Positions 26,767 to 40,924 of a stretch of DNA of 64,000 nt are shown one piece after another. Every line of letters begins with the position of its first letter. The stretch's first letter is position 1. The stretch comes from Pelobacter seleniigenes DSM 18267 (GTDB lineage Bacteria > Desulfobacterota > Desulfuromonadia > Desulfuromonadales > Geopsychrobacteraceae): assembly GCF_000711225.1 (NCBI RefSeq), contig NZ_JOMG01000002.1, positions 1,686,501 to 1,750,500 on the forward strand, written 5' to 3'. A model generated the notes under the pieces. The model saw only the letters and a program-made list of their open reading frames with translations. It made no database searches and was not told the origin of the DNA. A program made the translations under genes and the position numbers.

Positions 26767-28923
26767 TCACCCTGATTTCAGCACCTTCTGAATGGTGGCC
26801 TGCAGCGTGGCAATCTGGAAAGGTTTTTGTAAAAAGGCGGCCAGGCCTTTGCCGATGAATTTTTGCGAGATTTCCTGTTCGTTATAGCCACTGCTCATAA
26901 TGACCTTGACGGCGGGGTTGCTGCGGCGCATCTCGCGGAATGCTTCGCCGCCGTCCATATGCGGCATGGTCAAATCCATCAGTACAAAGAGGATCTCATC
27001 CTGGAGCTGTTCGTAGATACTGACCGCTTCCCGGCCATTCTCCGCGGTGATGACCTCCAGGCCGAACAGCTCCAGCATGCTCTTGCCCAGGCTGCGCATG
27101 GTTTCTTCGTCATCCACCAGCAGTACTTTTCCATTTAAGGTCAGCTGGTCGCCCAGGTCCAGCTCACTGACGCTCAGGCTGAGTTTTTCCGAAGCCGGGA
27201 ACAGCACCTTGATAGTGGTCCCCTGGCCCGGTTCGCTGTAGATTTTAATTGCTCCCCGATGGCCGCGGACGATACCGATCACCGAAGACATGCCGAGGCC
27301 GCGGCCGGTAAATTTGGTGGTAAAGAAGGGATCGAAGATCCGCGAAATGGTTTCCTTGCTCATGCCGCAGCCGGTATCGGCGACTTCGATGTAAACGTAA
27401 TATCCCTCAGTCAGGTTTTCGTCGAGCCAGGTTTCACTCAGATAATTCCGGTCGCATTCCATATAACCGGTGGATATGGCAATGATTCCGCTCCTGTCTC
27501 CGATGGCGTCGGAAGCGTTGATGACCAGATTCATGATGATCTGCTGAATCTGGGTCGGATCGGCTTCGATGGTGGGGAGATTATTGTTCAGTTCATAGCG
27601 CAGCACGGCTTTTTTGGAAATGGAAACCGAGAGCATATACTCCATTTCCCGGATCAGATGCCCCAGGTCCAGCGGTTCCGCCAGAAATTTTCCCTTACCC
27701 GAGTAGGCGAGCATCTGGTTGGCAAGGTCGGCAGCTTTGCGCGCGGCCTGTTTGATCTGTACCAGATGTTCAAACGCCGGCGATTCATGGGTCAGTTTCA
27801 TCTGCGCCAGATCGCCATGGCCGAGAATGACCATCAGAATGTTGTTGAAATCATGGGCGATTCCGCCGGCCAGAACGCCAAGGCTTTCGAGTTTCTGTGC
27901 ATGCAGCATCTGTTGTTCAAGCTGCACCTGGCGTTCCTGCATTCTTTTGCGTTCGGTAATGTCCCGCACTGTGGACAGAATGTAGTCCCTGCTGTTCCAG
28001 GGGATGACCGCGGAATGGACTTCGGCGGGGAAGATCTCCCCCGATTTCTTGACGTGCCGGGTTTCGACAAAGATTCGGCCAACCTTGCGCAGTTCTTCCT
28101 TGCGCCCTTCCGCCAGATGGCGTTTGAGGTCCTCTTCGCAGACAATATCCGAAAGTCTCATCTCCAGCATCTGCTCGTAATCGTAACCGTACAGCTCGGT
28201 GGCCCGATGATTGACCTCGCTGAATGTGGCGAACCCTTCATCTTCAAATTGATGGAGGATGATGGCGTCACTCTGATGATTCATCAGAGAGCGGTATTTT
28301 TCTTCACTTTCGGTCAGGGCCGCTTCCGCTTTCTGGCGGGCAGCCACCTCTTTTTTCAGCTCGGTGACCGATTCGGTCAGCTCTTGCGAGTGTCTGGCCA
28401 ATTCAAGGGCGAGCCTGTTTTTGCGAATCAGCAGTTGGGTCAGAAAAACCAGCAACAGGCAGAACAGGGCCGCGCTGCTACCGAAAAGATATTCCAGGTT
28501 CCGGGTATGGTTGCGGACCCGACCCAGGTCAACAACGATAACCAATTTGGCTGCACCGTCATAAGAGTATGGAATTGTTCTGGTAAAGCGCTTTTGGAAG
28601 GGAGATGGCTCTTTGGAACGGTAGTCGCCCAGCAGGAAGCCGTTGGCCATGGTCAGGCTGATTGAGCTGACATAGTCGGACTGCTGACGACCCCATGATT
28701 GCACCAGTGCCGCAGCAGAAGAGTAGTTCTTTTCCTGAAGTTTTTCCTGGATCAGATCCTGTAAAAAAGAAATATAGGTTTCCGTCTTGGTTGAAACGTC
28801 TTTGATTTGTGCGTTATGAACCAAAGAAATACTGTACCAGATGATAATAATCTGCAGCAGGCAGATCAGACCGCAGATAGACCAGTAACGGATGGCTAGA
28901 TTTTTTTGTCCAGACTCATTCAT
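26767..28923 (-). CDS. membrane-bound hybrid sensor histidine kinase
   Basis: The 718-residue protein has a transmembrane helix at 13-35, an external segment of about 110 residues, a second helix at 147-167, a short coiled coil, a PAS domain (about 205-325), a HisKA helix with phosphoacceptor His357 (GGIAHDFNNILM), a HATPase_c domain (NLVINASDAIG, ADTGCGMSKE, GRGLGMSSVIGIVRGH) and a C-terminal receiver domain (VLLVDDEETM, phosphorylatable Asp in FVLMDLTMPHMDGG). Its start codon lies within the last codons of the solute-binding gene (8-base overlap), so the two are co-translated and probably form one sensing unit. No separate output regulator is adjacent. Confidence 0.9.
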   Translation of the reverse strand: MNESGQKNLAIRYWSICGLICLLQIIIIWYSISLVHNAQIKDVSTKTETYISFLQDLIQEKLQEKNYSSAAALVQSWGRQQSDYVSSISLTMANGFLLGDYRSKEPSPFQKRFTRTIPYSYDGAAKLVIVVDLGRVRNHTRNLEYLFGSSAALFCLLLVFLTQLLIRKNRLALELARHSQELTESVTELKKEVAARQKAEAALTESEEKYRSLMNHQSDAIILHQFEDEGFATFSEVNHRATELYGYDYEQMLEMRLSDIVCEEDLKRHLAEGRKEELRKVGRIFVETRHVKKSGEIFPAEVHSAVIPWNSRDYILSTVRDITERKRMQERQVQLEQQMLHAQKLESLGVLAGGIAHDFNNILMVILGHGDLAQMKLTHESPAFEHLVQIKQAARKAADLANQMLAYSGKGKFLAEPLDLGHLIREMEYMLSVSISKKAVLRYELNNNLPTIEADPTQIQQIIMNLVINASDAIGDRSGIIAISTGYMECDRNYLSETWLDENLTEGYYVYIEVADTGCGMSKETISRIFDPFFTTKFTGRGLGMSSVIGIVRGHRGAIKIYSEPGQGTTIKVLFPASEKLSLSVSELDLGDQLTLNGKVLLVDDEETMRSLGKSMLELFGLEVITAENGREAVSIYEQLQDEILFVLMDLTMPHMDGGEAFREMRRSNPAVKVIMSSGYNEQEISQKFIGKGLAAFLQKPFQIATLQATIQKVLKSG

Positions 28924-29794
28924 CAAGGAGGCCTTTTTCGGCAAGGTTGTGGAGAACTTGGCGCAGAGGATTGTAAGCAGAGTCCTTAATCGGCACAAAC
29001 GCCGAGATGGTCGGTGTGATGGCCTGCATGATGACCGTTCCTTCCGGCAGGGATCGCAGGTCGAAGAAGGCACGTCGTAATGCACCCAGTTCGGCTCTGG
29101 ACAGCCCGTTGCGGGCGACAAACAGATGCTCGGCCGATGCCGGTGAGCGGGCCAGTTCTTTCAGCCCGTGCTGTTTGTAGTTGTTGAAAACGGTTTCTTT
29201 CACAGCGCCAGCAATAAAATCCCCGCTGAGAACGCCGAGGACGACATTCTCATGGGTGTTTAAAAATTGGTAGCGGTGTTGGGTCAGCAGCGTCGGGTTG
29301 TGTTGACTTAAAACAAACGCCGGCAACAGATAGCCCATCGTGGAATGGCGATTAACAAAAGCGAAAGGTTGGCCTTCAAGAGCGGTCAGGGACGCAATGC
29401 CACTATTGATCCGGGTAAAAATAACGCTGTTGGAAATAGGACTTCCATTAGTTTCCTGGCCGGCAATCAGCGGCTTGGGGCCGTATCTATCAACCATTTC
29501 GATATAGCCGAGGGGGCCGAGATAGGCGATATCAACCAGATCCCGGCCAACGGATTCGACATGTTCCCGGTAGCTGCTGCCAATGCGCAACTCGACAGGG
29601 TGGTCAAGGCGAAGACTTAAATATTCAACCAGGGGTGAAAACTGTCGCTGGAGGATTCTAGCGGATTGAAATGGGTGGATTCCAAGGGTCAGAGGACCTT
29701 TTCCCGCCGCCGCAGTGGTATGCAGAACAAGAAAAAGGGTAAAGAGGGCCCCGAAAAGTTTTTTCCCCGCGGTTGAAAGATTGAAACCTTCCAT
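28916..29794 (-). CDS. PhnD-like periplasmic binding protein paired with a sensor kinase
   Basis: The 292-residue protein has a signal peptide (LFGALFTLFLVLHTTAAAG) and one phosphate/phosphonate-type binding domain: LTLGIHPFQSARILQRQFSP, YLSLRLDHPVELRIG, DIAYLGPLGYIEM, FVNRHSTMGYLLPAF and DFIAGAVKETVFN. No transporter genes are nearby, and it overlaps the hybrid kinase gene, which supports a role as ligand-binding partner of the kinase rather than transport. The ligand is unknown; the fold also binds other oxyanions. ATG at 29794 follows AGAGGGG closely; another ATG lies eight codons upstream. Confidence 0.82.
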   Translation of the reverse strand: MEGFNLSTAGKKLFGALFTLFLVLHTTAAAGKGPLTLGIHPFQSARILQRQFSPLVEYLSLRLDHPVELRIGSSYREHVESVGRDLVDIAYLGPLGYIEMVDRYGPKPLIAGQETNGSPISNSVIFTRINSGIASLTALEGQPFAFVNRHSTMGYLLPAFVLSQHNPTLLTQHRYQFLNTHENVVLGVLSGDFIAGAVKETVFNNYKQHGLKELARSPASAEHLFVARNGLSRAELGALRRAFFDLRSLPEGTVIMQAITPTISAFVPIKDSAYNPLRQVLHNLAEKGLLDE

Positions 29795-29959
29795 GACCCC
29801 TCTCAGCTTGAAATACATAAATGGTAGCGAAAGCAAGGTACACTGAATTAACCGAGAGTTCAAGCCGCAGTTGTCCTGAAGGTTGCAACAACATTCTGTC
29901 TTTTGGGCGGATTTGTTGTCCACGGTGCCGGGGGAATGGCGCCGTGGACAAAGGATTGA

Positions 29960-32900
29960 TTATAAATCGAGTCGCCAGATATTGTATTGGCCACCGCCCC
30001 GGGTCGAGGTGAAGAACAGGCTATTGCCGTCAGCGGCCCAGGCCGGTTCGAAGTCAAACCCTGTGCGGGTGAGCTGCCGGCTGCTAGCCGTGGCGAGGTC
30101 GTAGAGCCAGAGCCCGGCTCGGCCATCCTGGTTGAACGACCAGAACAGAGCCCGGTCGCCAGTTGGAGAGAACCGGATACCACGGTCGCCAAGAGTGGCC
30201 GATTTGGAAATCAGCCGCGGGTTTGCGGCGGTTGCCGTTCCGTCCTCCAAACGCAGGTCCGCGATCACCGCCAGATAGCTGATTCGTTCCTTGCCGCTGG
30301 TGTCGCTGAGCGCTTCTGCGGTCAAGGCGATCAAGCCATTATCACTGTTCATATCGCTGAGCTGGACCGAATGGGGACCGTCCCAGGCATAGCTATGGGG
30401 GGCGTTATAGCCGTTTTCAAAGGTCATGAAGCGTTCGACAGTGAGACCATAGTCCCCGCTTGGCGCGACTTTGTAAGCCATCACCCCGTCAGCATTGAAC
30501 CAGGGGCTGGTCTCCATGTCCTCGGCGCTGGTCAGCCGGTAGCTGGCGCTGCCGTCTACAGCGATGAGCCAGATGTCCCAATTGCCAGCGCTCTGTTTGG
30601 CATAAGCGATATGGCTGCCATCGGGGGTAAAGACCGGTCGCTCGATGGCGCCGCTGCTGCTGTCCAGGGTGGTGAGGTGGCCGGTGAGGTCGGTCATTTG
30701 CAGTTTATGCGTCGTGGTTGCCGGGTCATATTCCCAGAAGGCAATCTGCTGACCGTCAGGGCTGAATTGTTGCCAACCCTGGATTCCCGTTGTCGGGGCC
30801 AGACGGCGCTGGTTGGAGCCGTCTGTTGCCATCAGCCAGAGCTGGTCGTTGCCGCTGCGGGTACTGATCCAGGAAAGGAGGTGGCCGTCCGGGCTGGCCA
30901 CCGGCATATTGTCTATGGCGTTGTCCGAGGTCAACTGGGTGAGAGGATAGATCTCATTGCCGGAACTGTCCGGAAGGACCACCGCAGGATCGGTAGCCGG
31001 ATGCCCCGTGGGCATGGGTGCCGGTAGCCGGTGGCAGCGGTAACAGGACGGGTTGTCGCCATTGGGAATCAGTTGCCGGGTCGGCAAGGTCAGGCGTTCA
31101 GGAAAACTGAAGCCGAAATCGACCCCGGCCAGGCTGTAGGTGGCCGGGTGGATCAGTCCGTTTGCGTCGATCTGATACCGGGTCGAGTCCGGCGTTGAAC
31201 CGTGCCCGCCGGTCAGGGTCTCCATGGTTGGGCTGCCGGCAACAATAGCATCGGCATAGCTGAGGGTCCGGACCGGGCCGAGCGCGGTGTGGAACGCCCC
31301 CTTGTTGGTGGCAGCTGTGATACCGGTCGCTTGGTCTTCGCGGAGCGTTTTGTGGACATTGGCCGGCGCGGTGACCGTGGCGTCGCGGCCGTAAATATAG
31401 CTTTGTTCGGCGACAATGGACTTGTAGGCCTTGGCCATGGTCAGGGCACGTTCCCGGGACGGATAGAGCAATAGCGAAACGTCGTCATGCAGCTTTTGCA
31501 GTTGGTCGCTGTCAATACTGCCGGCCGGGAAGAACTTGGTAATGACCTCTGTGTTGTTACGGAACTCGTCGCCGGCCTGGTTGTAACGCAGGTAGAAACT
31601 GTACTCAAACTGAACGCCGGCATTATTGATGGCAAGCAGCGGTTCCTTTGTGCCCTGACGGTTGAGCTGGCTCCAATGGTACCAGCCCTGACGTTCCGTG
31701 CGATCAGCCGTCAGTTTGCGCGGAAAGGAGAAGATTCCGTCCACCGTGGCACCGATGCCGCTGTGGCAACCGATGCAGAAAGCGGTCTCTTCATAAGTCT
31801 GCGGCCTGAGTTCGCCGTTTGCATCTTCGATGAAGCCCTGATAGAGCCAGCCCTGATCATTGTTTATGCCCTGTTCGACGTTACCGATCAGCTGTCGGGT
31901 CCGATCGGGAAAGTCGTGGTTCTCTTTGGCTTCTTCCAATGCTGCCTGGAGCAGCTCCGAGTAGGTCTGCCAGGTTCGCTTTATGGCATAGCGTAATTCT
32001 TTGATCCGTGGCGCCAGTTTGACGGCGCCGGTTTCATCGTCGATATCCACATAACGAACGGTATGGAGGAACTGGGTGCCTTCCGGAAACAGGCCGGCGG
32101 CCAGGTGAAGCGTGCCGTTCTCCCGTTCGCTTTCCGCCCTGCCCACATAATTCATCTCCCGCCCTTCGGTCGGCGACCAGGCGAAGGTGACCTGGAGGGC
32201 GGTTCCCAAACTGCCGTCGCGGTCCAGGTCGATGCCGTAATCTGCTTCGTTGATCGGACTGGCCAGAAGGACATCGCGGCGAGTGACCAGGGCTTCGACA
32301 ATCGCCAGATTGATTTTGTAGATGGTCAGATCGAAGTCGCCGTCCGCATTTTGCTGGAAACTGTCGCCAAGCCGGATCAGCACATCATTGACCGAACCGT
32401 TGGTCGGCCAGAAGGTGCTCGGGAACGATGCGTAGGCAAACGCCCGCCAGCCGGTATAGGCGCTGCCATTCTGATCAAACCCCTGTTCGTCGAAGTTGAA
32501 GCGGCAATCCGGGATGTAACCGTCCCACTGGCCGTCCTCGTCAAAGTCCCAATCCGGAGCCAGATTGTTAAGTTTTTCAGCAAGGAGGATCTGCCCCTGG
32601 TCATCCTGGTAGTTATCGGTGCGGATGTAGTTGAGAATCTCCGCGTCGGAGATAGCCGCGACCGCTGCACTGCGGTCGATAAACAGGTTGCTCCAGGGAT
32701 TCTCCAGCAATGCTGCCGGGAAGCTGTACTCCAACTGAAGATCCTGATCATTCACGTAGTTGGGTGGGATGGATGCCGTATGGCAACTGTAACAAGGATT
32801 GTAGGTCGGCCCCCCCTCCTCAGGTTGAGTGACGGTGAAGCACTGGGCCGGGATATAAGCGGCCGGATTGACCAGCTCCTTGCTGCGCAGGTCGGTGGTG

Positions 32901-33013
32901 CTGTAGCTGTTGTCAGGGGTGTCAGCCGGGTCCGGTCCGGAATCGGAACTGCCGGAACCGCCACAGGCCGCCAGGAACAATAGGATGATAGTGCAGAAGG
33001 CGAATCTGCTCAT
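29960..33013 (-). CDS. tri-haem beta-propeller lipoprotein (HzsA-like, PD40 repeats)
   Basis: The 1017-residue lipoprotein (LAACGGSG lipobox) contains three CxxCH haem-c motifs: CYSCH near residue 65, CIGCH near 405 and CYRCH near 655. The C-terminal third carries WD40-like PD40 repeats (FSPDGQQIAFWEYD, FTPDGSHIAYAKQ, FSPTGDRALFWS, WAADGNSLFFTSTRGG), indicating a beta-propeller. This combination resembles the hydrazine-synthase alpha-related (HzsA-like) proteins found in many non-anammox bacteria, where function is unknown. ATG at 33013 follows GGAAGGAGG. It lies downstream of the PhoX-like gene behind a terminator-like hairpin. A role in surface electron transfer is inference. Confidence 0.8.
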   Translation of the reverse strand: MSRFAFCTIILLFLAACGGSGSSDSGPDPADTPDNSYSTTDLRSKELVNPAAYIPAQCFTVTQPEEGGPTYNPCYSCHTASIPPNYVNDQDLQLEYSFPAALLENPWSNLFIDRSAAVAAISDAEILNYIRTDNYQDDQGQILLAEKLNNLAPDWDFDEDGQWDGYIPDCRFNFDEQGFDQNGSAYTGWRAFAYASFPSTFWPTNGSVNDVLIRLGDSFQQNADGDFDLTIYKINLAIVEALVTRRDVLLASPINEADYGIDLDRDGSLGTALQVTFAWSPTEGREMNYVGRAESERENGTLHLAAGLFPEGTQFLHTVRYVDIDDETGAVKLAPRIKELRYAIKRTWQTYSELLQAALEEAKENHDFPDRTRQLIGNVEQGINNDQGWLYQGFIEDANGELRPQTYEETAFCIGCHSGIGATVDGIFSFPRKLTADRTERQGWYHWSQLNRQGTKEPLLAINNAGVQFEYSFYLRYNQAGDEFRNNTEVITKFFPAGSIDSDQLQKLHDDVSLLLYPSRERALTMAKAYKSIVAEQSYIYGRDATVTAPANVHKTLREDQATGITAATNKGAFHTALGPVRTLSYADAIVAGSPTMETLTGGHGSTPDSTRYQIDANGLIHPATYSLAGVDFGFSFPERLTLPTRQLIPNGDNPSCYRCHRLPAPMPTGHPATDPAVVLPDSSGNEIYPLTQLTSDNAIDNMPVASPDGHLLSWISTRSGNDQLWLMATDGSNQRRLAPTTGIQGWQQFSPDGQQIAFWEYDPATTTHKLQMTDLTGHLTTLDSSSGAIERPVFTPDGSHIAYAKQSAGNWDIWLIAVDGSASYRLTSAEDMETSPWFNADGVMAYKVAPSGDYGLTVERFMTFENGYNAPHSYAWDGPHSVQLSDMNSDNGLIALTAEALSDTSGKERISYLAVIADLRLEDGTATAANPRLISKSATLGDRGIRFSPTGDRALFWSFNQDGRAGLWLYDLATASSRQLTRTGFDFEPAWAADGNSLFFTSTRGGGQYNIWRLDL

Positions 33014-33030
33014 GGTCAAACCTCCTTCCC

Positions 33031-33066
33031 AAAACGGGAAAAGGGGGGAGCGCAACAGCTCCCCCC
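33031..33066 (-). terminator. hairpin terminator or attenuator after the PhoX-like gene
   Basis: GGGGGGAGC (33043-33051) and GCTCCCCCC (33058-33066) form a perfect 9-bp stem with a 6-base loop. On the minus strand it is followed by TTTTCCCGTTTT. It lies between the PhoX-like and cytochrome genes, so read-through could set their ratio. Confidence 0.65.
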
Positions 33067-33102: not shown

Positions 33103-36100
33103 TCAGTCCGCACTATCCATGGCAGGGAACGGACCGACAAAGCCGGTGTAGGCTGCAGCATCCGCCGAATCTTCCAGCTGGTCCTGATCGGACTCGCCAT
33201 AGGGATGCTGAACCACGCTCATCAGGTATGCGTTACCGCCGATGTTCGGATAGAAATAGGGGGAGGTGGTTTCCGAACCGTAGGGGGTGGTCTGGATTCG
33301 GGTCAGCTCCTCCGTGTCGAGATGATAGGCCCAGATGACATCGTTCTGATGGCCGCTACCGGTATCTTCGCCGATAATCAGAGTGTGGTAGCCGGGGATG
33401 AAGGTGAGGTTGTCCGGGTTGGCAATACCATTGATATCACAGGTGTTGCCGGCATAGACGCTGGCCGGGTCGTAGCTGACCGGGGTGCCGTTGACCAGGC
33501 CGACCATGGTCATGGCGACATAGTTGCTGCCGATGCTGCTATCGGTGCCGACCGCCAGTTGATAGACGGTTCCGCAGGCATTTTTGGGCAGGCGGACCTG
33601 GTTCGGTCCGCCGTTATCGTTGCTGGAGCCGTCTTCCATGCCTTTGGCCACTTCACTCATGGCCACGTACAGGGTCATGCCGTCAGGGTCGAAGGTGATC
33701 CCCTCTTCTTTGCGCAACTCGGTAGTTGCCCCCAACATGGCGGCATAGCGGCGGGATTCCAGGCGCGAAGCCAGGGTCTCCATGCCGGTTTTGACAGCCA
33801 GACATTCATGCCCCCAGCTGGTGTTGATGGAGGTGTAGCCGCTGGCACAGCTTCCGTTCGTGGCCGGTTCGACCGCGTCGAAAATATCGCTGAAGCTGGT
33901 TCCTGCGTTGATGGCGGTGTTGAGTTCCGCGAAAGTCGCATGGCCGAGGTCGATCCAGTTGATATCGAAAGCGCCACCGTCTGCGGCGTCGGTTTGATTC
34001 AACTGCGCGGCGTAGAGGGTCCCGTTACTCAGATCGCCGGCGGTGTCGGCGACAAACATGAAGAAGCCGACATTGGTGCCGTCGTCGGAAATGTAGACGG
34101 TCTTTTCATCCGGCATGACATAGGATAATTCGACCGCCATCCGCCCCATGGCATAGTGTTTAGCGATGGTATAGCTGCCGTCGGCGGCCACGCTGACTTC
34201 AGTGGGGAAACCGTATTTGTAAGGATTGAGAACCGCTTTGAGGTCAGTCGCCGTGGTTGCCGCGGCATCCGGATCGACATCGAAATATTTGGCCATCTGA
34301 TCGAAACTGCCGTTGTCTTTGATCTCCTGGATGCTGGTGGCGTTTTCAAACGACCGCGCATCCGGTTCATACTCTTCCGAACCGAGGTGTGAGTTCCACG
34401 GCGTGACGCTGCCGGCGCAGGGAACCCAGAGGCCGCCCCAGGCGGAAAAGTCGATGTTTTGAGTGCTGAGCGGGGTCAGGCTGCCATCGGTACCCTGTTC
34501 CAGCCGGGTCAGGTACATGGCGCCGGGGCGACTTTCGAAATGAGAGACGCTGTAAAGGCTGCTGCCCAGATCCAGCAGCGAGGCAAAGTCATTGGAGTTG
34601 GAGACGGTCTGGGAGTTGTCGGCAGCGGTCAGCGGGGTACCGTGCTGATCGAGCAATAGCCCGAAAGTGGCGCTGCCGAGACTGTCGCCGCTACGCAGGA
34701 TGGTGTTGAAGCCGATGGCATGGCCGGTTCCGTTGACCGAAGCGGAAGGGGTGCCCCAGATTTTGCGTTTTTCACTGTCAAGGGTCGGTGCCGGGACGTC
34801 AAGGAAGTTGAGGCTGGTCATGCCCTGCCGGCCGCGGGTGTTGTCGACCAGGTTCGGTCCTTCAGCACCGAGGGCCGGGAAAGGGCCGATATAACCGACA
34901 TAAGCGGCGGCATCAGCCGGGTCAGTCAGCTTGTCCTGATCCGATTCCCCGTAAGGGTGCTGGATAACGCTTATCAGGTAACCGTGGCCGTTCAGGCTCG
35001 GATAAATGTAGGGGGAGGTGGTTTCCGAACCGTAAGGGGTGGTCTGGATTCGGGTCAATTGGTCTTTGGACAGATCATAGGCCCAGATGGCATCGTTTTG
35101 ATGGCCGCTGCCGGTGTCCTCGCCAATGATCAGGGTATCTTTCCCGGGGATGAAGGTAATGTTGTCAGGGTTTGCGATCCCGTTGACATTGCAGGTGTTG
35201 CCGGCATAATCGCTGCCATCGGGGTAGGTGGTTGGAATGCCACTGATCAAGCCGGCCATGTCCTTGGCCACATAATCACTGCCGATCAGCGGATCGGTAC
35301 CAACCGCCAATTGATAGACGGTCCCGCAGGCATTCTTGGCCAGGCGGACCTGGTTGGGGCCGCCGTTATCGTTGCTGGAACCGTCTTCCATCCCTTTGGC
35401 CACTTCACTCATGGCGACAAACAGGGTCATACCGTCGGGGTCGAAGGAGATCCCTTCTTCTTTGCGCAGTTCCGTGGTTGCGCCGAGCATGGCCGCATAG
35501 CGGCGGGACTCCAGGCGTGAGGCGACGGTCTCCATGCCGGTTTTAACGGCCAGGCATTCATGCCCCCAGGTGGTGTTAATGGAGGTGTAGCCGCTGGCAC
35601 AGGTCCCGTCAGTGGTCGGCTCGACACTGTCGAAGATGTCGCTGAATACGACATGGTTGTCGATGGCGGTTTTGATCTGCGCAAAGGTGGCGTGACCAAG
35701 GTCGATCCAGCTAAGATTAAAAGAACCTCCGTCGGTAGCCGCCAACTGTTCAAGTTGGGCAGCGTACAGGGTTCCGGCGCTCAGGTCTCCGGCGCTGTCG
35801 GCGATGAACATGAACAGTCCGACATTGGTGCCGTCATCCGAAATATAAACAGTTTTCCGATCGGGCATGACATAGGGCAGTTCGACGGCCATCCGCCCCA
35901 TGGCATAATGCTTGAGGACGCTGTAGCTGCCGTTTTCCTGTACGATGACTTCCGTCGGGTAGCCGTAGGCATAGGGATTGACCACCTCTTTGATGTCGGC
36001 AACCGTGGTCGTCGGCGCATAAAAGGGGACAGCAAAATAATTGGACATGCTGCCGAAATAGGAACCGATGTCGTCCTTGCTGGTGGCGGCCTCATAGGCA

Positions 36101-36681
36101 CGGGCATCGGGTTCGTATTCTTCAGAACCGAGGTGGGTATTCCAGGGAGTGACGCTGCCGGCGCAGGGTGTCCACAGCCCGCCCCATTGGGAAAAGTCGA
36201 TGCTGCGAGTGCTGACCGCGGTCAGGGTGCCGTCGCTGGCCTGGTTCAGTTCAGTCAGGTACATGCCGCCCGGCTGACTTTCAAAATGGGTCACGCTGTA
36301 GAGTTTGTCGCCGAGGTGGAGCAAGGAGGTGAAATCGGCGGAATTCGAGATGAACTCGGAGTTGTCCTCCTGAATGACTGGCGCCCCCTGATAGTCGCGA
36401 ATCAGACCGAAGGTTTCGGTGCCGATAACCTGGCCGCTTCTAAGCAGGGTGTTGTAACCGATGGCATAGCTGGTCCCATCAATTTTGACCGAGTCCGTGG
36501 CCAGTACGGATCGTTTCTGGGTATCGCTGAGGGGGACTGAAATTTGGGAAAAGGCCATGTCCGCAGGGGGTTCTTGGCTGTTGTTGTCGTTATCGCTGCA
36601 GCCGCTCAGTAGCAGTGCCGCCAGCAATGGGGCCAGGAAAAACGACATTCTGATACGTCTGTGCAACCTTTGTGTCTCCAT
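33103..36681 (-). CDS. tandem-duplicated PhoX-like (DUF839) lipoprotein
   Basis: The 1192-residue lipoprotein (lipobox LLSGC) consists of two homologous halves, about residues 40-610 and 630-1190. Each contains, in the same order, FNT/YNTLLRSG, LTELN/LTRLEQ, GGLWxPCAGSVTPWN, LGSEEYEPDAR, AVELxYVMPDxKTVYISDDG, EGIxFDPDGMTL, NDNGGPNQVRL, GIANPDNxTFIPG and IGEDTGSGHQND. These features match the PhoX/DUF839 family of Ca/Fe-dependent alkaline phosphatases, including the Glu-rich metal-binding propeller loops (EEYEPDAR, GEDTGSGHQND). Matching stretches are also nearly identical at DNA level about 1.75 kb apart, so the duplication is recent or is kept similar by gene conversion. ATG at 36681 follows AAGGAG. 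Activity on phosphomonoesters is likely but unproven. Confidence 0.88.
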   Translation of the reverse strand: METQRLHRRIRMSFFLAPLLAALLLSGCSDNDNNSQEPPADMAFSQISVPLSDTQKRSVLATDSVKIDGTSYAIGYNTLLRSGQVIGTETFGLIRDYQGAPVIQEDNSEFISNSADFTSLLHLGDKLYSVTHFESQPGGMYLTELNQASDGTLTAVSTRSIDFSQWGGLWTPCAGSVTPWNTHLGSEEYEPDARAYEAATSKDDIGSYFGSMSNYFAVPFYAPTTTVADIKEVVNPYAYGYPTEVIVQENGSYSVLKHYAMGRMAVELPYVMPDRKTVYISDDGTNVGLFMFIADSAGDLSAGTLYAAQLEQLAATDGGSFNLSWIDLGHATFAQIKTAIDNHVVFSDIFDSVEPTTDGTCASGYTSINTTWGHECLAVKTGMETVASRLESRRYAAMLGATTELRKEEGISFDPDGMTLFVAMSEVAKGMEDGSSNDNGGPNQVRLAKNACGTVYQLAVGTDPLIGSDYVAKDMAGLISGIPTTYPDGSDYAGNTCNVNGIANPDNITFIPGKDTLIIGEDTGSGHQNDAIWAYDLSKDQLTRIQTTPYGSETTSPYIYPSLNGHGYLISVIQHPYGESDQDKLTDPADAAAYVGYIGPFPALGAEGPNLVDNTRGRQGMTSLNFLDVPAPTLDSEKRKIWGTPSASVNGTGHAIGFNTILRSGDSLGSATFGLLLDQHGTPLTAADNSQTVSNSNDFASLLDLGSSLYSVSHFESRPGAMYLTRLEQGTDGSLTPLSTQNIDFSAWGGLWVPCAGSVTPWNSHLGSEEYEPDARSFENATSIQEIKDNGSFDQMAKYFDVDPDAAATTATDLKAVLNPYKYGFPTEVSVAADGSYTIAKHYAMGRMAVELSYVMPDEKTVYISDDGTNVGFFMFVADTAGDLSNGTLYAAQLNQTDAADGGAFDINWIDLGHATFAELNTAINAGTSFSDIFDAVEPATNGSCASGYTSINTSWGHECLAVKTGMETLASRLESRRYAAMLGATTELRKEEGITFDPDGMTLYVAMSEVAKGMEDGSSNDNGGPNQVRLPKNACGTVYQLAVGTDSSIGSNYVAMTMVGLVNGTPVSYDPASVYAGNTCDINGIANPDNLTFIPGYHTLIIGEDTGSGHQNDVIWAYHLDTEELTRIQTTPYGSETTSPYFYPNIGGNAYLMSVVQHPYGESDQDQLEDSADAAAYTGFVGPFPAMDSAD

Positions 36682-37083
36682 CTGCATCTCCTTCAGTTTG
36701 AATTTGAATGATCGAATTTTAGTAACAGCTTGCTGTTCGTTCTGGTTGTCCGGGACTGATGAAGTATAAAAATCGTTGTGCGACAGCTACTTTCGACTAT
36801 TCTGGTTAGACAGATGTTGTCCGGCGGTTAGGTCATCATTAATGTAGGGAAATAAAAAATACTTTTCCGGTTGTTCTTCGGTTGTTTGTGATTTGGTGCC
36901 AAAAATTATCCTAAGTTGCCGGATTGTTTCGACGGGCGTCGGTCCAAGGAGGGCCGGAAAGGCTGTCCGTACGGGGCGGATTGTTAGCTGGTGGTTAGCG
37001 GAATGGCTGGGTGAAAGTTGCTGTTAGACAGGTTTAACCTCTTGAATGTTAGGAAAATTAGCTTTTGTGACGGGACAACCACG
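36682..37083. other. divergent intergenic region upstream of the PhoX-like gene
   Basis: No gene is supported. On the minus strand CTGTCGCACAACGATTTT precedes a -10-like TATACT (36768-36763). CTGTC elements occur here twice but not at the 11-base spacing of a classic Pho box, so phosphate control is not shown by the sequence. Confidence 0.35.
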
Positions 37084-37482
37084 ATGAATCTTTTTGTCTA
37101 TGGCACCCTCCTGGATGAAGACATCATGCAACTGGTCGCTGGTACGGTACCGCCGTCCATTGCGGTGCGGCTCCACGGTTATCGGCGCAGGAAAATTTGC
37201 GGACAGGTTTATCCGGGTATTGTCATCAGGGCCGGGGAGACAGTTGCAGGGCGATTGTATCTCAATGTTTCAGCGGAGTTGCTGGCGCGACTTGACCGGT
37301 TTGAAGGTGGCGAATATGAACGGACCACTGTCTTGGTGGAAAGTACCAGTGGCGAGCAGTTGCTGGCGGAGACTTATGTTCTGGCGCCGGGCGGGCAAAG
37401 CGCGCTCAGTAACGAGTCCTGGTCATTGGCGGAGTTTCTTGGTCGTGGGAAGCAACTGCTGCTGCAAGAATTGAAAAAATGA
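37084..37482 (+). CDS. gamma-glutamylcyclotransferase-like (AIG2) protein
   Basis: The 132-residue protein matches the AIG2/GGCT fold: LFVYGTLLDEDIM at the N-terminus, with the YGTL substrate loop, RLHGYRRRKICGQVYPGIVI, then the catalytic Glu in DRFEGGEYERTTV and AETYVL. Family members cleave gamma-glutamyl amines or peptides to 5-oxoproline; the precise substrate is not predictable. ATG at 37084 fixes the family-typical start although the ribosome site is weak. A GC-rich hairpin follows its stop codon. Confidence 0.88.
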   Translation: MNLFVYGTLLDEDIMQLVAGTVPPSIAVRLHGYRRRKICGQVYPGIVIRAGETVAGRLYLNVSAELLARLDRFEGGEYERTTVLVESTSGEQLLAETYVLAPGGQSALSNESWSLAEFLGRGKQLLLQELKK

Positions 37483-38059
37483 TGCCAATCGGCCGATTCT
37501 GGGGAATAAAGTTGGGCAAGGGGGACTGCCTATCCCCCCTGCCCGTGCCAAAACAACCTTTTGGGAGGATTTCTTGGCAGTTAAAAGCATAGGGAAGTTC
37601 CTTGTTTATTGCAAGAATGGAACGTTCTTTTTCATATCGGGGGCAGTCTGCGGCGGTCTTGTCTTGGCTGTTCCGACCCGCTCACCAAGGCTGTTCTGAA
37701 AAACTGCACATCTTCTGAATCCTTCCTGCAATTTCAGATGAATAAAAATCCTCTATTTTAAAAACTACGCTTTGTGAGTGTTAAATCTCATCCGGAATTG
37801 TTGCAAATCTAACGAAACAATAATCTTTTTCCTGCATTTATCACCGTGGTTCAGACATTTTCCTGCCGATGCAGTGTGGTGCTTGGGGGTGGGATTCATG
37901 CGAACTGCAGACGACAAGCTGAATCTGTTTTCAGGCTGTTGGAAACAGCCAGTGATGGACTTTTCTAACAATCTGTTACTTCAGCGGACAGTCTGCCTCA
38001 TTCATGTCATCCGGCGGTCAGGTGATTGTCCGATGACTTTTCTTTCCAGGAAAAGGGGT
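37483..38059. other. intergenic region before the duplicated alkaline phosphatase
   Basis: A hairpin GGGCAAGGGGG / CCCCCCTGCCC (37514-37544) lies just after the cyclotransferase gene and may end its transcript, though it lacks a T-run. A dispersed repeat copy lies at 37929-37982. The phosphatase frame stays open through part of this region, but no start upstream of 38060 combines a ribosome site with a signal peptide. Confidence 0.45.
37929..37982. repeat. dispersed repeat copy (MITE-like, short)
   Basis: CAGGCTGTTGGAAACAGCC is followed after a few bases by GTGATGGACTTTTCTAACA and ends ATCTGTTA. Both parts correspond to the two ends of the longer repeat at 46382-46470 (CAGGCTGTTGAATAACAGCC ... 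GGACTTTTTCAACAACCTG). The interior is shorter here. It has no coding capacity. Confidence 0.55.
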
Positions 38060-40924
38060 ATGATTGTGCAACGACGATTACGATTGTGGGTCAAGTGTCC
38101 TCCATGGACCAAGGAGTTAATCAGCCTGTTTGCCTTGCTGATGTTGTTGGCGGGGTGTGGATCGGATGGTGATGACGGGCGCGACGGGGCCGCTGGCGCG
38201 AATGGTTATGCGGCACCTAAAAACGTCATCCTGTTCATCGGTGATGGGATGCAAAAAGAGCACGAACTGGCTGCCAGCCGCTACTTTTATGGCAACGAGA
38301 GCGGTCTGGTCTGGCAGGATCAGAGCGAGTTTCCTTATCAGAATTATGTCACGACCTGGGATGTAACCACCTATAACAATTATGCCGGAGAGGCTTCCGC
38401 CGCCAGTTACGATCCGGAAAATATTACGGCCAAGTACGGTTATGATCTGCTCAAAGCGGGTTTGTCCACAGCCGCCAAGGATGAATATTTTCTCGCCGGT
38501 GCGGCAACCGATTCAGCGTCTGCGGGAACGGCTATGGCGACCGGTGTGAAAACCGACGCTGGGAATATTGCCTGGACGACCGGAGACCCGGTTGGAGGGG
38601 AGCTAACCACAATCGGTGAATACTATCGCACCCGGGGGGGAAGCTATGGTGTTGTATCGACGGTGGAATTCTCGCATGCCACGCCCGCTTCCTTTGCCTC
38701 CCATAATGTCAATCGCAACAATTACCAGCAGATCGCGCATGAGATCGTGGCGGAAACCCGGCCGGATGTGGTGATCGGTGCCGGACATCCTGATTTCGTC
38801 GGTTCCGATCACTATGTCGCGCAGGCCGACTATACCGCGATCAAGGCCGACGCGGAGTATGTCTTTGTCGAAAAGACCACGTCTGTCGATGGCGGCGACG
38901 CGCTCCTGGCTGCAGCGGATAGCGCCGTGGCCCAAGGCAAGAAGCTGTTTGGCCTGTTCGGGTCCACCCAGATAGCAACACCGTTGGTCACCGATACTCC
39001 TGCAGCGCCGACCTTCAGTAATGCCGATGAGACTGACCCGCTGCTGGCGGAATCGACCGAGGCTGCCATTAAGGTTCTCAGTCAGAATGGCAACAGTTTC
39101 TTCCTGATGGTTGAGCAGGGGGATATCGACTGGAGCAACCATGCCAATAATTTCAGCGGGATGGTCGGCGGGGTCATCGACCTGGACCGCGCCGTAGCCA
39201 AAGCCGCGGCGATGGTCGACAACGGTGACAATGGCCTGTCCTGGGACAATACCCTGGTGATGGTGACGTCCGACCACGGCAACAGTTACCTGCGTTTCAA
39301 CACCGCTCTGGCCCTTGGCGCAGGAGATCTGCCCAGTCAGGACGGTTCCAGCTACCCGGATGGTGAAGTGTTCTACGGCACCGGCGGCCATACCAATGAA
39401 CTGGTCTCCCTCTATGCCAAGGGCGCCGGGGTTGATTACCTGAAAGGTCGCCAGGGAGTTCTTAACCGCGGCACCGAGCTGTTGGACAATACCGATGTTT
39501 ACCGGGCGGCAAAAAATGCTGCCGACCAGGGTTACAATGTGATTCTGTTTATTGGTGACGGCATGCAGAAAGCCCACGAAATTGCCGGTTCCCGCTATAT
39601 GTACGGGACCGATGCCGGGCTGTCCTTCCACAATTTCGATTTCACCGGCTATGTCACCACCTGGGATGTGGATACCTACAACAGCTATGCTGCAGCTCGT
39701 CATGAACTGGGTTACGCCGCTGCGACGCTGATTGACCAGCTCGACTGCCGAGCCGGTTATGATCCAGCGGTCGCCGGGGGGCTGCCGTATCCGCTGATTG
39801 ATTCGTATCTGCTGGCTCATGCGACCGATTCCGCTTCCGCCGGGACGGCGATGTCGACCGGGATCAAGACCGATGATGGTAATATTTCCTGGGCTTCGGG
39901 AGACGCAGCGGACGGTATGTTGCAGAATGTCATCGACAAAGTCTGGGGACAGCGCGCCGGAGCAACCGGAGTTGTGTCCACGGTGGAATTTTCCCACGCC
40001 ACCCCGGCAACCTTTTCGTCTCATAACATCAACCGTAACAACTATGGCGAGATCTCGGAAGATGTGATCTTCAACGTGCGCCCTGATGTGGTGATCGGCG
40101 CCGGCCACCCGGCTTACAACGGCACTGCGGCCGAACCCGATTATCGCTATATCACCAAAGCGGCCTATCAGGCGATAGCCGCGGATAACGAGTATGTTTT
40201 TGTGGAAAAAAACCCGGGTGGCAACGGTGGAACAAATCTCCTCGCGGCGGCTGATCAGGCTGCTGCCGCAGGAAAAAAACTGTTTGGATTGTTCGGTGCC
40301 GCTCAAATCGCCACCCCGTTGGTGACCGATACCCCAGGTAGCCCGTCATTCAGCAAGGCGGACAGCGAAGATCCTTGTTTGGCCGAATCCACGACCGCGG
40401 CGCTGAAGGTTCTCAGCCAGGATCCGGCCGGTTTCTTCCTGATGGTTGAGCAGGGGGATATCGATTGGAGCAACCATGCCAATAACTTCAGCGGGATGAT
40501 TGGCGGGGTGGAAGACCTGGAGCAGGCGGTCAAAACCGCCATCGATTACGTCGAGCAACCGGGTGATCAGATTGACTGGTCAAATACTCTGCTGATTGTG
40601 ACGTCCGACCATGGCAACAGCTTCATGCGGGTTAATCGTGCCCTCAAACCAGGCCTGGGTGATCTGCCGACCCAGCAGGAGGCTCCAACGGAATGCAGTG
40701 ATGCCTATTGCGGTTCATACATTTATCCCGACGGGGATGTTTTTTACGCAACCGGCGGGCATACCAACGAACTGGTTTCGCTGTACGCCAAAGGCTATGC
40801 CGCCGCGGACCTGTTTGAAAAGTATCAAGGCCGCATGTATCCCGATGTGGAAACCCGGGTCATCGACAACACGGATATTTTCAAAGTGATGGCTGAATTT
40901 TTCGGGATCACTCTGGATCAGTAA
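38060..40924 (+). CDS. tandem-duplicated PhoA-type alkaline phosphatase lipoprotein
   Basis: The 954-residue lipoprotein (MLLAGC, then a short collagen-like DGDDGRDGAAGANG linker) contains two complete alkaline phosphatase domains, residues about 54-480 and 491-950. Both keep the metal and nucleophile motifs: NVILFIGDGMQ, ATDSASAGTAM (nucleophile Ser), STVEFSHATPA, FFLMVEQGDIDWSNHANN, VTSDHGNS and TGGHTNELVSLYAKG. Both copies therefore look catalytically competent. DNA of the two halves is very similar in blocks about 1.33 kb apart. ATG at 38060 is chosen for its AGGAAAAGGGG site and because it yields a standard lipoprotein signal; TTG/ATG codons further upstream would lengthen the leader. 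Its neighbour across 1.4 kb is the duplicated PhoX-like protein. Confidence 0.9.
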   Translation: MIVQRRLRLWVKCPPWTKELISLFALLMLLAGCGSDGDDGRDGAAGANGYAAPKNVILFIGDGMQKEHELAASRYFYGNESGLVWQDQSEFPYQNYVTTWDVTTYNNYAGEASAASYDPENITAKYGYDLLKAGLSTAAKDEYFLAGAATDSASAGTAMATGVKTDAGNIAWTTGDPVGGELTTIGEYYRTRGGSYGVVSTVEFSHATPASFASHNVNRNNYQQIAHEIVAETRPDVVIGAGHPDFVGSDHYVAQADYTAIKADAEYVFVEKTTSVDGGDALLAAADSAVAQGKKLFGLFGSTQIATPLVTDTPAAPTFSNADETDPLLAESTEAAIKVLSQNGNSFFLMVEQGDIDWSNHANNFSGMVGGVIDLDRAVAKAAAMVDNGDNGLSWDNTLVMVTSDHGNSYLRFNTALALGAGDLPSQDGSSYPDGEVFYGTGGHTNELVSLYAKGAGVDYLKGRQGVLNRGTELLDNTDVYRAAKNAADQGYNVILFIGDGMQKAHEIAGSRYMYGTDAGLSFHNFDFTGYVTTWDVDTYNSYAAARHELGYAAATLIDQLDCRAGYDPAVAGGLPYPLIDSYLLAHATDSASAGTAMSTGIKTDDGNISWASGDAADGMLQNVIDKVWGQRAGATGVVSTVEFSHATPATFSSHNINRNNYGEISEDVIFNVRPDVVIGAGHPAYNGTAAEPDYRYITKAAYQAIAADNEYVFVEKNPGGNGGTNLLAAADQAAAAGKKLFGLFGAAQIATPLVTDTPGSPSFSKADSEDPCLAESTTAALKVLSQDPAGFFLMVEQGDIDWSNHANNFSGMIGGVEDLEQAVKTAIDYVEQPGDQIDWSNTLLIVTSDHGNSFMRVNRALKPGLGDLPTQQEAPTECSDAYCGSYIYPDGDVFYATGGHTNELVSLYAKGYAAADLFEKYQGRMYPDVETRVIDNTDIFKVMAEFFGITLDQ

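Follow-up and report, generated by a model that had tools for sequence, protein, structure and literature searches.

How do two neighbouring genes come to encode phosphatases in which the whole enzyme is present twice, and do all four of the resulting domains look functional? The genes in question lie in a 64,000-nt stretch of the genome of Pelobacter seleniigenes DSM 18267 (GCF_000711225.1, NZ_JOMG01000002.1, positions 1,686,501-1,750,500), which we refer to as the window and to which the coordinates below apply. A PhoX-like gene on the minus strand and a PhoA-like gene on the plus strand, both for lipid-anchored proteins, each consist of two full-length enzyme copies. The initial annotation had described them as two different folds, each doubled internally, and the profile searches agreed, as the Pfam PhoX family was found in each half of the first protein and Alk_phosphatase in two stretches of the second. 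It had also called the arrangement unusual. We examined this with 212 open reading frames of at least 200 residues, which are mechanical calls unchecked as genes, taken from 320 kb of this genome sampled in 16 stretches, each frame being split into parts before comparison by BLAST. None of the 212 contained an internal repeat covering at least 0.7 of the protein, the largest value being 0.53. The corresponding coverage was 0.93 for the PhoX frame and 0.78 for the PhoA frame, the latter calculated on a frame of 1048 residues. As both genes are doubled and no control frame has a near-full-length repeat, the observation is real and rare. Elsewhere in this genome, a lipoprotein-like frame (L098, 11631-12974, minus strand) has an internal repeat of 135 columns at 50% identity.

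The PhoX tandem gene (33103..36687, minus strand; annotated initially as 33103-36681, which was right to within a start codon) encodes 1194 residues with a lipobox Cys at position 30. Its N half (34804..36543) and C half (33106..34803), with an inter-half linker at 34804..34869, are 71% identical over 560 columns, and each passes the 24-bit cut-off of PF05787 (76.7 and 68.9 bits). Similarity to solved structures was remote; the C half matched the PhoX of P. fluorescens with 26 bits. A Foldseek search with a predicted model of the tandem, of modest confidence, gave 3zwu (E 4.9e-11) and 4a9v (E 1.5e-10) as best hits. That model was made from a 15-row alignment and had a mean pLDDT of 62 and a pTM of 0.47, so that the halves cannot be placed relative to each other. 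With a pTM of 0.43 for the downstream partner protein discussed below, both models were unusable for this purpose and a domain arrangement from structure prediction was rejected.

As in the PhoX family (PF05787; P. fluorescens PhoX, 3zwu/4a9v/4alf), the Cys, Glu, Asp and Arg positions align in the tandem. Cys129, Glu143/144, Glu225, Asp240/241, Arg364 and Glu366/367 (numbering of the C half), among which are the residues that we take to be the Fe and Ca ligands, are identical in all eight halves of the four double PhoX proteins that we found; the position of Glu366 is Met in two of eight single enzymes aligned. We then counted departures from the 160 residues that are invariant in single PhoX enzymes (fragment L036 was excluded; L018, L020, L021 and L034 were absent from the alignment). 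Each half departs at 5-9 of them, and 13 single enzymes, left out in turn, at 0-15. This similar conservation of both halves speaks against the loss of one half. The dN/dS between the halves is about 0.2.

Inspected by eye, the N-terminus of the tandem has a lipobox-like ...LSGC and no canonical twin-Arg motif, so that the feature for Tat export is lacking; the internal junction has no lipobox, and the second half has no signal peptide of its own. The tandem differs from PhoX of the P. fluorescens type in having two domains per chain, a lipobox and a downstream CxxCH partner. Characterised PhoX enzymes are known to use Tat export, a trait that PF05787 does not require, and the PhoX of C. jejuni, from which the tandem differs in its lipobox and missing twin-Arg motif, depends on TatA1 (PMC4148689). 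A pattern scan of 18 single PhoX relatives found a lipobox-like string in 4 and a Tat-like string in 1. As just 4 of the 18 have the former, lipid anchoring is not general in this clade.

The PhoA tandem gene (38060..40924, plus strand, lipobox ...LLAGC) was assigned the ATG at 38060; another in-frame ATG lies at 38033, the first possible start in the frame list is a GTG at 37778, and the stop is at 40924. Its N half (38213..39526) and C half (39527..40921) are 57% identical over 456 columns by BLAST and 59% by MAFFT. PF00245 matches in two stretches with 288 bits against a cut-off of 24.4, and the N half matched 55 distinct alkaline phosphatase sequences of solved structure. By eye, the N-terminus carries a lipobox-like ...LAGC, the internal junction carries none, and the second half has no signal peptide; the initial annotation had called both proteins lipoproteins. 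In what we take to be the numbering of the E. coli enzyme, both halves have equivalents of Asp51, Asp101, Ser102, His153, Thr155, Arg166, Glu322, Asp327, Trp328, His331, Asp369, His370 and His412, that is, 13 of 13 checked positions. In this they resemble the PhoA family (PF00245; 3wbh, 1alk), and they are of the His153/Trp328 type, as are 17 of 19 relatives; the presence of two complete domains in one lipoprotein sets the tandem apart from the family. Departures from family-invariant residues number 20 and 19 of 130 in the two halves and 0-23 in single enzymes (6 of the 19 relatives, distant or partial, were excluded). The values are near the top of the range for single enzymes, and some relaxation is possible. 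The retention of active-site motifs in every half, claimed at the outset, was thus borne out for both proteins; with the catalytic positions kept and the departures inside the control range, both halves of PhoX and of PhoA look active as far as sequence can indicate.

High DNA similarity within each pair had also been claimed, together with recent events or gene conversion as its cause. The similarity was not high. The PhoX halves share 73.1% of bases (57% at third positions; NG86 dS 1.04) and the PhoA halves 61.7% (41%; dS 1.86). These dS values make both pairs old, and recent duplication was rejected; gene conversion found support in PhoX, as described below. The divergence also bears on the possibility of an assembly artefact, in which repeats were collapsed or made chimeric, or separate genes were wrongly fused. 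The double PhoA was found in one genome only, which would fit an artefact. On the other hand, the halves differ at 27% (PhoX) and 38% (PhoA) of bases, so that reads can separate them and a misassembled identical repeat is excluded; neither second half has, by eye, a signal peptide of its own; and the PhoX tandem recurs in three other genomes. We rejected the artefact on the divergence of the halves and on this recurrence, and regard it as hardly credible.

Concerning the distribution of PhoX, the genome counts given here, as those for PhoA, include P. seleniigenes itself. PhoX was matched at E 0.001 in 1 of 60 close relatives. A phylum sample gave matches in 9 of 395 genomes, among which only P. 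seleniigenes had a double protein as judged by open-frame length. At E 1e-20, 4 of 136 genomes of the order had PhoX, all with two matches in one frame. The three others (G474, G477 and G478) belong to one genus of another family of the same order, and two of them are one-contig assemblies. The class added four genomes with one match each to these four doubles (8 of 277). In a collection of named genomes, 13 of 15 PhoX loci were single-domain frames with full or nearly full matches, and two (L036 and L041) were cut by the contig end. Carriers of single-domain PhoX include Desulfobulbaceae, Rhodovulum, Magnetospira, Thioploca, Myxococcales, Sulfurospirillum and others. Carriage by viruses was rejected, as no relative was confirmed in viral contigs. 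Single-copy relatives with no doubled form, the contrary outcome named in the initial annotation, are not what we found: single enzymes exist for both families, and PhoX is doubled elsewhere too.

Identity between the N half of P. seleniigenes and those of the three relatives (N') is 78-79%, the dS between P. seleniigenes and a relative being 1.34 for this half. The linker is homologous in all of them, and the junction is alike in the four doubles (...GRQGM....FLDVP.PT.DSEKR..WGTPS). A homologous junction means that the PhoX fusion was one event, and an old one. The C half of P. seleniigenes has a more complex history. In a tree of full-length halves it grouped with the N halves (100/100) and left the relatives' C halves (XC') outside, although one clade of all C halves was not rejected (AU p 0.21). 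We therefore examined segments, which were picked after the identity profile had been inspected. In residues 1-80 plus 441-562, the C half grouped with the relatives' C halves (100/98), and AU tests spoke against its pairing with the N half of P. seleniigenes (p 3.9e-5) and with all N halves (p 0.043). In residues 81-440 it grouped with the N halves (100/100), with p 0.01 against a clade with XC' and p 0.01 against the pair of the two P. seleniigenes halves. A two-breakpoint scan of 61 informative sites placed the N-type tract at residues of about 57-418 (33550..34635, minus strand), and 5 of 5000 site shuffles reached the observed value; this outcome could owe something to a higher rate of change in the middle of XC'. 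The discordant trees and the scan point to gene conversion, in which N-type sequence has overwritten the C half in its middle. As the middle rejects the pair of the two P. seleniigenes halves, the tract as a whole predates the split of the two lineages.

A later round of homogenisation may be visible at residues 338-419 of the C half (33547..33792, minus strand). In a contrast tried second, which makes no use of XC' and compares sites where the N half equals its own C half with sites where it equals N', 10 of 11 sites in this stretch were of the former kind, a value reached by 2 of 5000 shuffles. Of the 10 sites, 5 were derived in P. seleniigenes and 5 in N'; with this even polarity we call the later tract probable only. 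A scan contrasting C half equal to N half with C half equal to N' along the PhoX halves was not significant (2512 of 5000 shuffles).

The same trees raise the question of whether the PhoX tandem came from duplication of one enzyme or from fusion of two different PhoX paralogues. Outside the converted middle, no clade unites the N and C halves without single enzymes, and XC' stands apart from the N halves; a fusion of paralogues would account for both. However, trees with such a clade were not rejected, whether it held all eight halves (AU p 0.28) or the N halves with XC' (p 0.22). We consider a fusion of paralogues a serious possibility, towards which we do not quite incline. The relatives' C halves (L064 in G477, L066 in G478 and L068 in G474) bear on a further reading, namely that the halves of each tandem differ in substrate, metal or pH conditions and are kept together by the fusion. 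In their middle, these C halves have an RGGWVHC core at the conserved Cys, like the single enzyme L017 and unlike their own N halves, where the other type has GGLWxPC, and their stem branch is longer than that of the N halves. Together with the divergence of the PhoA halves to 57-59% identity, this would fit specialised halves, but the N-type middle of the P. seleniigenes C half removes any such contrast from the core of the domain, and none of the checked catalytic positions differs between halves. A specialisation of the halves seems rather unlikely to us.

PhoA was matched at E 1e-60 in 12 of 395 genomes of the phylum sample, 7 of 136 of the order and 17 of 277 of the class, and twice in one frame only in P. 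seleniigenes; a very divergent second half could escape this threshold, although the length of most single frames leaves no room for one. Six members of the class have frames of 899-1065 residues with one PhoA match each. Four of these six were examined (L076-L079, from another family of the class; three are cut by the locus end), and they combine one PhoA domain with a C-terminal part of about 450 residues or more that has no BLAST similarity to PhoA. The single relatives used in the tree have frames of 380-722 residues. In that tree the two halves of the tandem paired with support of 89/83, which is under the star threshold of the tree tool, and a long-branch warning was given. As far as searched, the PhoA tandem arose separately and occurs only in this lineage.

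A conserved pair of phoX and phoA was considered and rejected, as the PhoA matches of the three double-PhoX relatives are distant, single and located elsewhere. The two tandems have separate histories, and the initial proposal of independent duplications was correct in this respect. P. seleniigenes itself has a distant single PhoA at another position (C2:266744-267487). Between the two genes of the window, a 23-nt element occurs upstream of phoX (36814..36836, plus strand) and upstream of phoA (38004..38026, plus strand), the copies being identical at 19 of 23 positions. When the single bases of one region were shuffled, 2 of 300 shuffles reached a similarity of this degree, and the pattern, with up to 3 mismatches, has 6 sites in the whole genome including both source copies, against 1 for the reversed control. 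Its orientation differs between the two genes, which makes it a weak lead. Pho box patterns were not in excess, with 43 matches against 35.6 expected, and 14 of 100 shuffles reached 43.

About 50 nt downstream of phoX lies a gene on the same strand (29960..33055, ATG probably at 33013). It encodes a lipoprotein in which three CxxCH motifs are present and the C-terminal part is a PD40/TolB-like propeller, matched by PD40 and TolB both by profile and by fold. The protein resembles TolB/PD40 beta-propeller proteins in this C-terminal part, and differs from them in the N-terminal 570 residues, which carry two conserved CxxCH motifs. In this region no Pfam or NCBIfam cut-off was reached, Cytochrome_P460 scoring below its own. 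Across 11 partner rows the second motif was present in 11 and the first in 10, the remaining row (L033) beginning inside the motif. Judging from these motifs, the partner is probably a c-type heme protein.

At E 1e-30, the partner was found in 4 of 136 genomes of the order, exactly those with a double PhoX. Downstream DNA of 1.3 kb or more is available at 24 phoX loci, and at 18 of these the partner lies directly downstream on the same strand, with gaps of -104 to 99 nt under first-start calling. It is absent from L032, L034 and L037, with about 10 kb downstream, and from L018, L020 and L083, where less than 1.4 kb is available and a more distant copy would be missed. Loci outside the 24 are L015 and L016 (the same as L029 and L028 by identical match values), L019, L031, L036 and L041 (too little downstream DNA) and L022-L026 (G147, match split and out of order; second pieces of L020, L021). 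Named carriers of the pair belong to Pseudomonadota and Thermodesulfobacteriota. In Rhodovulum, Actibacterium, Thioploca, Rhabdochromatium and one further gammaproteobacterial locus, the partner has kept its first domain and has no propeller. Rhabdochromatium marinum has two partner copies in a row downstream of phoX (L035, 11817-13478 and 13491-15170). In the 20-40 kb around phoX of the three double-PhoX relatives, only phoX and the partner gene are shared with the window. A cassette without other common neighbours and with a patchy distribution suggests spread by horizontal transfer.

Taking these results together, we think it probable that the locus specifies two lipid-anchored phosphatases, in each of which a single chain carries a pair of catalytic domains from one family, with selection maintaining both as functional enzymes. 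The PhoX tandem would have arisen once, long ago, when two mature-domain copies were joined without a second signal peptide, and would today be held by two families of the order; the overwriting of the C-half middle, seen in the sequence, would keep its halves alike in P. seleniigenes. The PhoA tandem would have a separate origin. Bacterial PhoA enzymes are normally dimers, and within the PhoA tandem the two halves may pair with each other in the manner of such a dimer. Both proteins would presumably serve to free phosphate from organic phosphate at the cell envelope, each lipid anchor holding two active sites. As the gene order suggests, phoX is most likely co-transcribed with the downstream gene, and on the best reading PhoX and this partner, probably a c-type heme protein, would act together as a unit of the envelope.

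The gene pair admits other readings of PhoX. In two named phyla its gene is tightly linked to one for a probable c-type heme protein, PhoX and partner have an identical distribution within the order, and the tandem is remote from characterised PhoX; these observations would agree with a redox-linked enzyme of another kind, working with the partner, rather than a nutritional phosphatase. Membership in PF05787, the aligned active-site residues and PhoX as the best structural match speak against this, as do the 6 of 24 loci that are missing the partner, and we consider it improbable. The known form of PhoX holds ferric iron as cofactor. A somewhat less improbable, still speculative proposal keeps PhoX as the hydrolase in a phosphatase-cytochrome pair of an undescribed kind, in which the CxxCH lipoprotein would supply or keep ferric iron at low oxygen, or would couple hydrolysis to redox, and a two-domain PhoX would raise the number of active sites per partner. 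Many carriers (Desulfobulbaceae, Rhodovulum, Rhabdochromatium), though not Actibacterium, presumably live with little oxygen.

Both tandems are variants of known enzyme families, in which the doubling itself is unusual; the pair of phoX and the CxxCH gene is the newer of the leads found here. Among the entries listed by literature term searches, none dealt, by title or start of abstract, with an operon of PhoX and a cytochrome or with a tandem form of PhoX or PhoA. Where both sites of a tandem phosphatase are intact, nature offers a test of whether doubled active sites per anchor pay, and the PhoX tandem provides a case, common to two families, in which gene conversion between halves is visible. 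The linked CxxCH gene also makes it possible to test whether some bacteria provide PhoX with a redox partner. Finally, at 26767-29923 (minus strand) the window contains a PhnD-like periplasmic binding protein (PF12974) adjoining a frame read by eye as a sensor histidine kinase with a receiver domain. No match to this region was found beside phoX in the three double-PhoX relatives, and the two proteins are a possible sensor of phosphorus or of an oxyanion.
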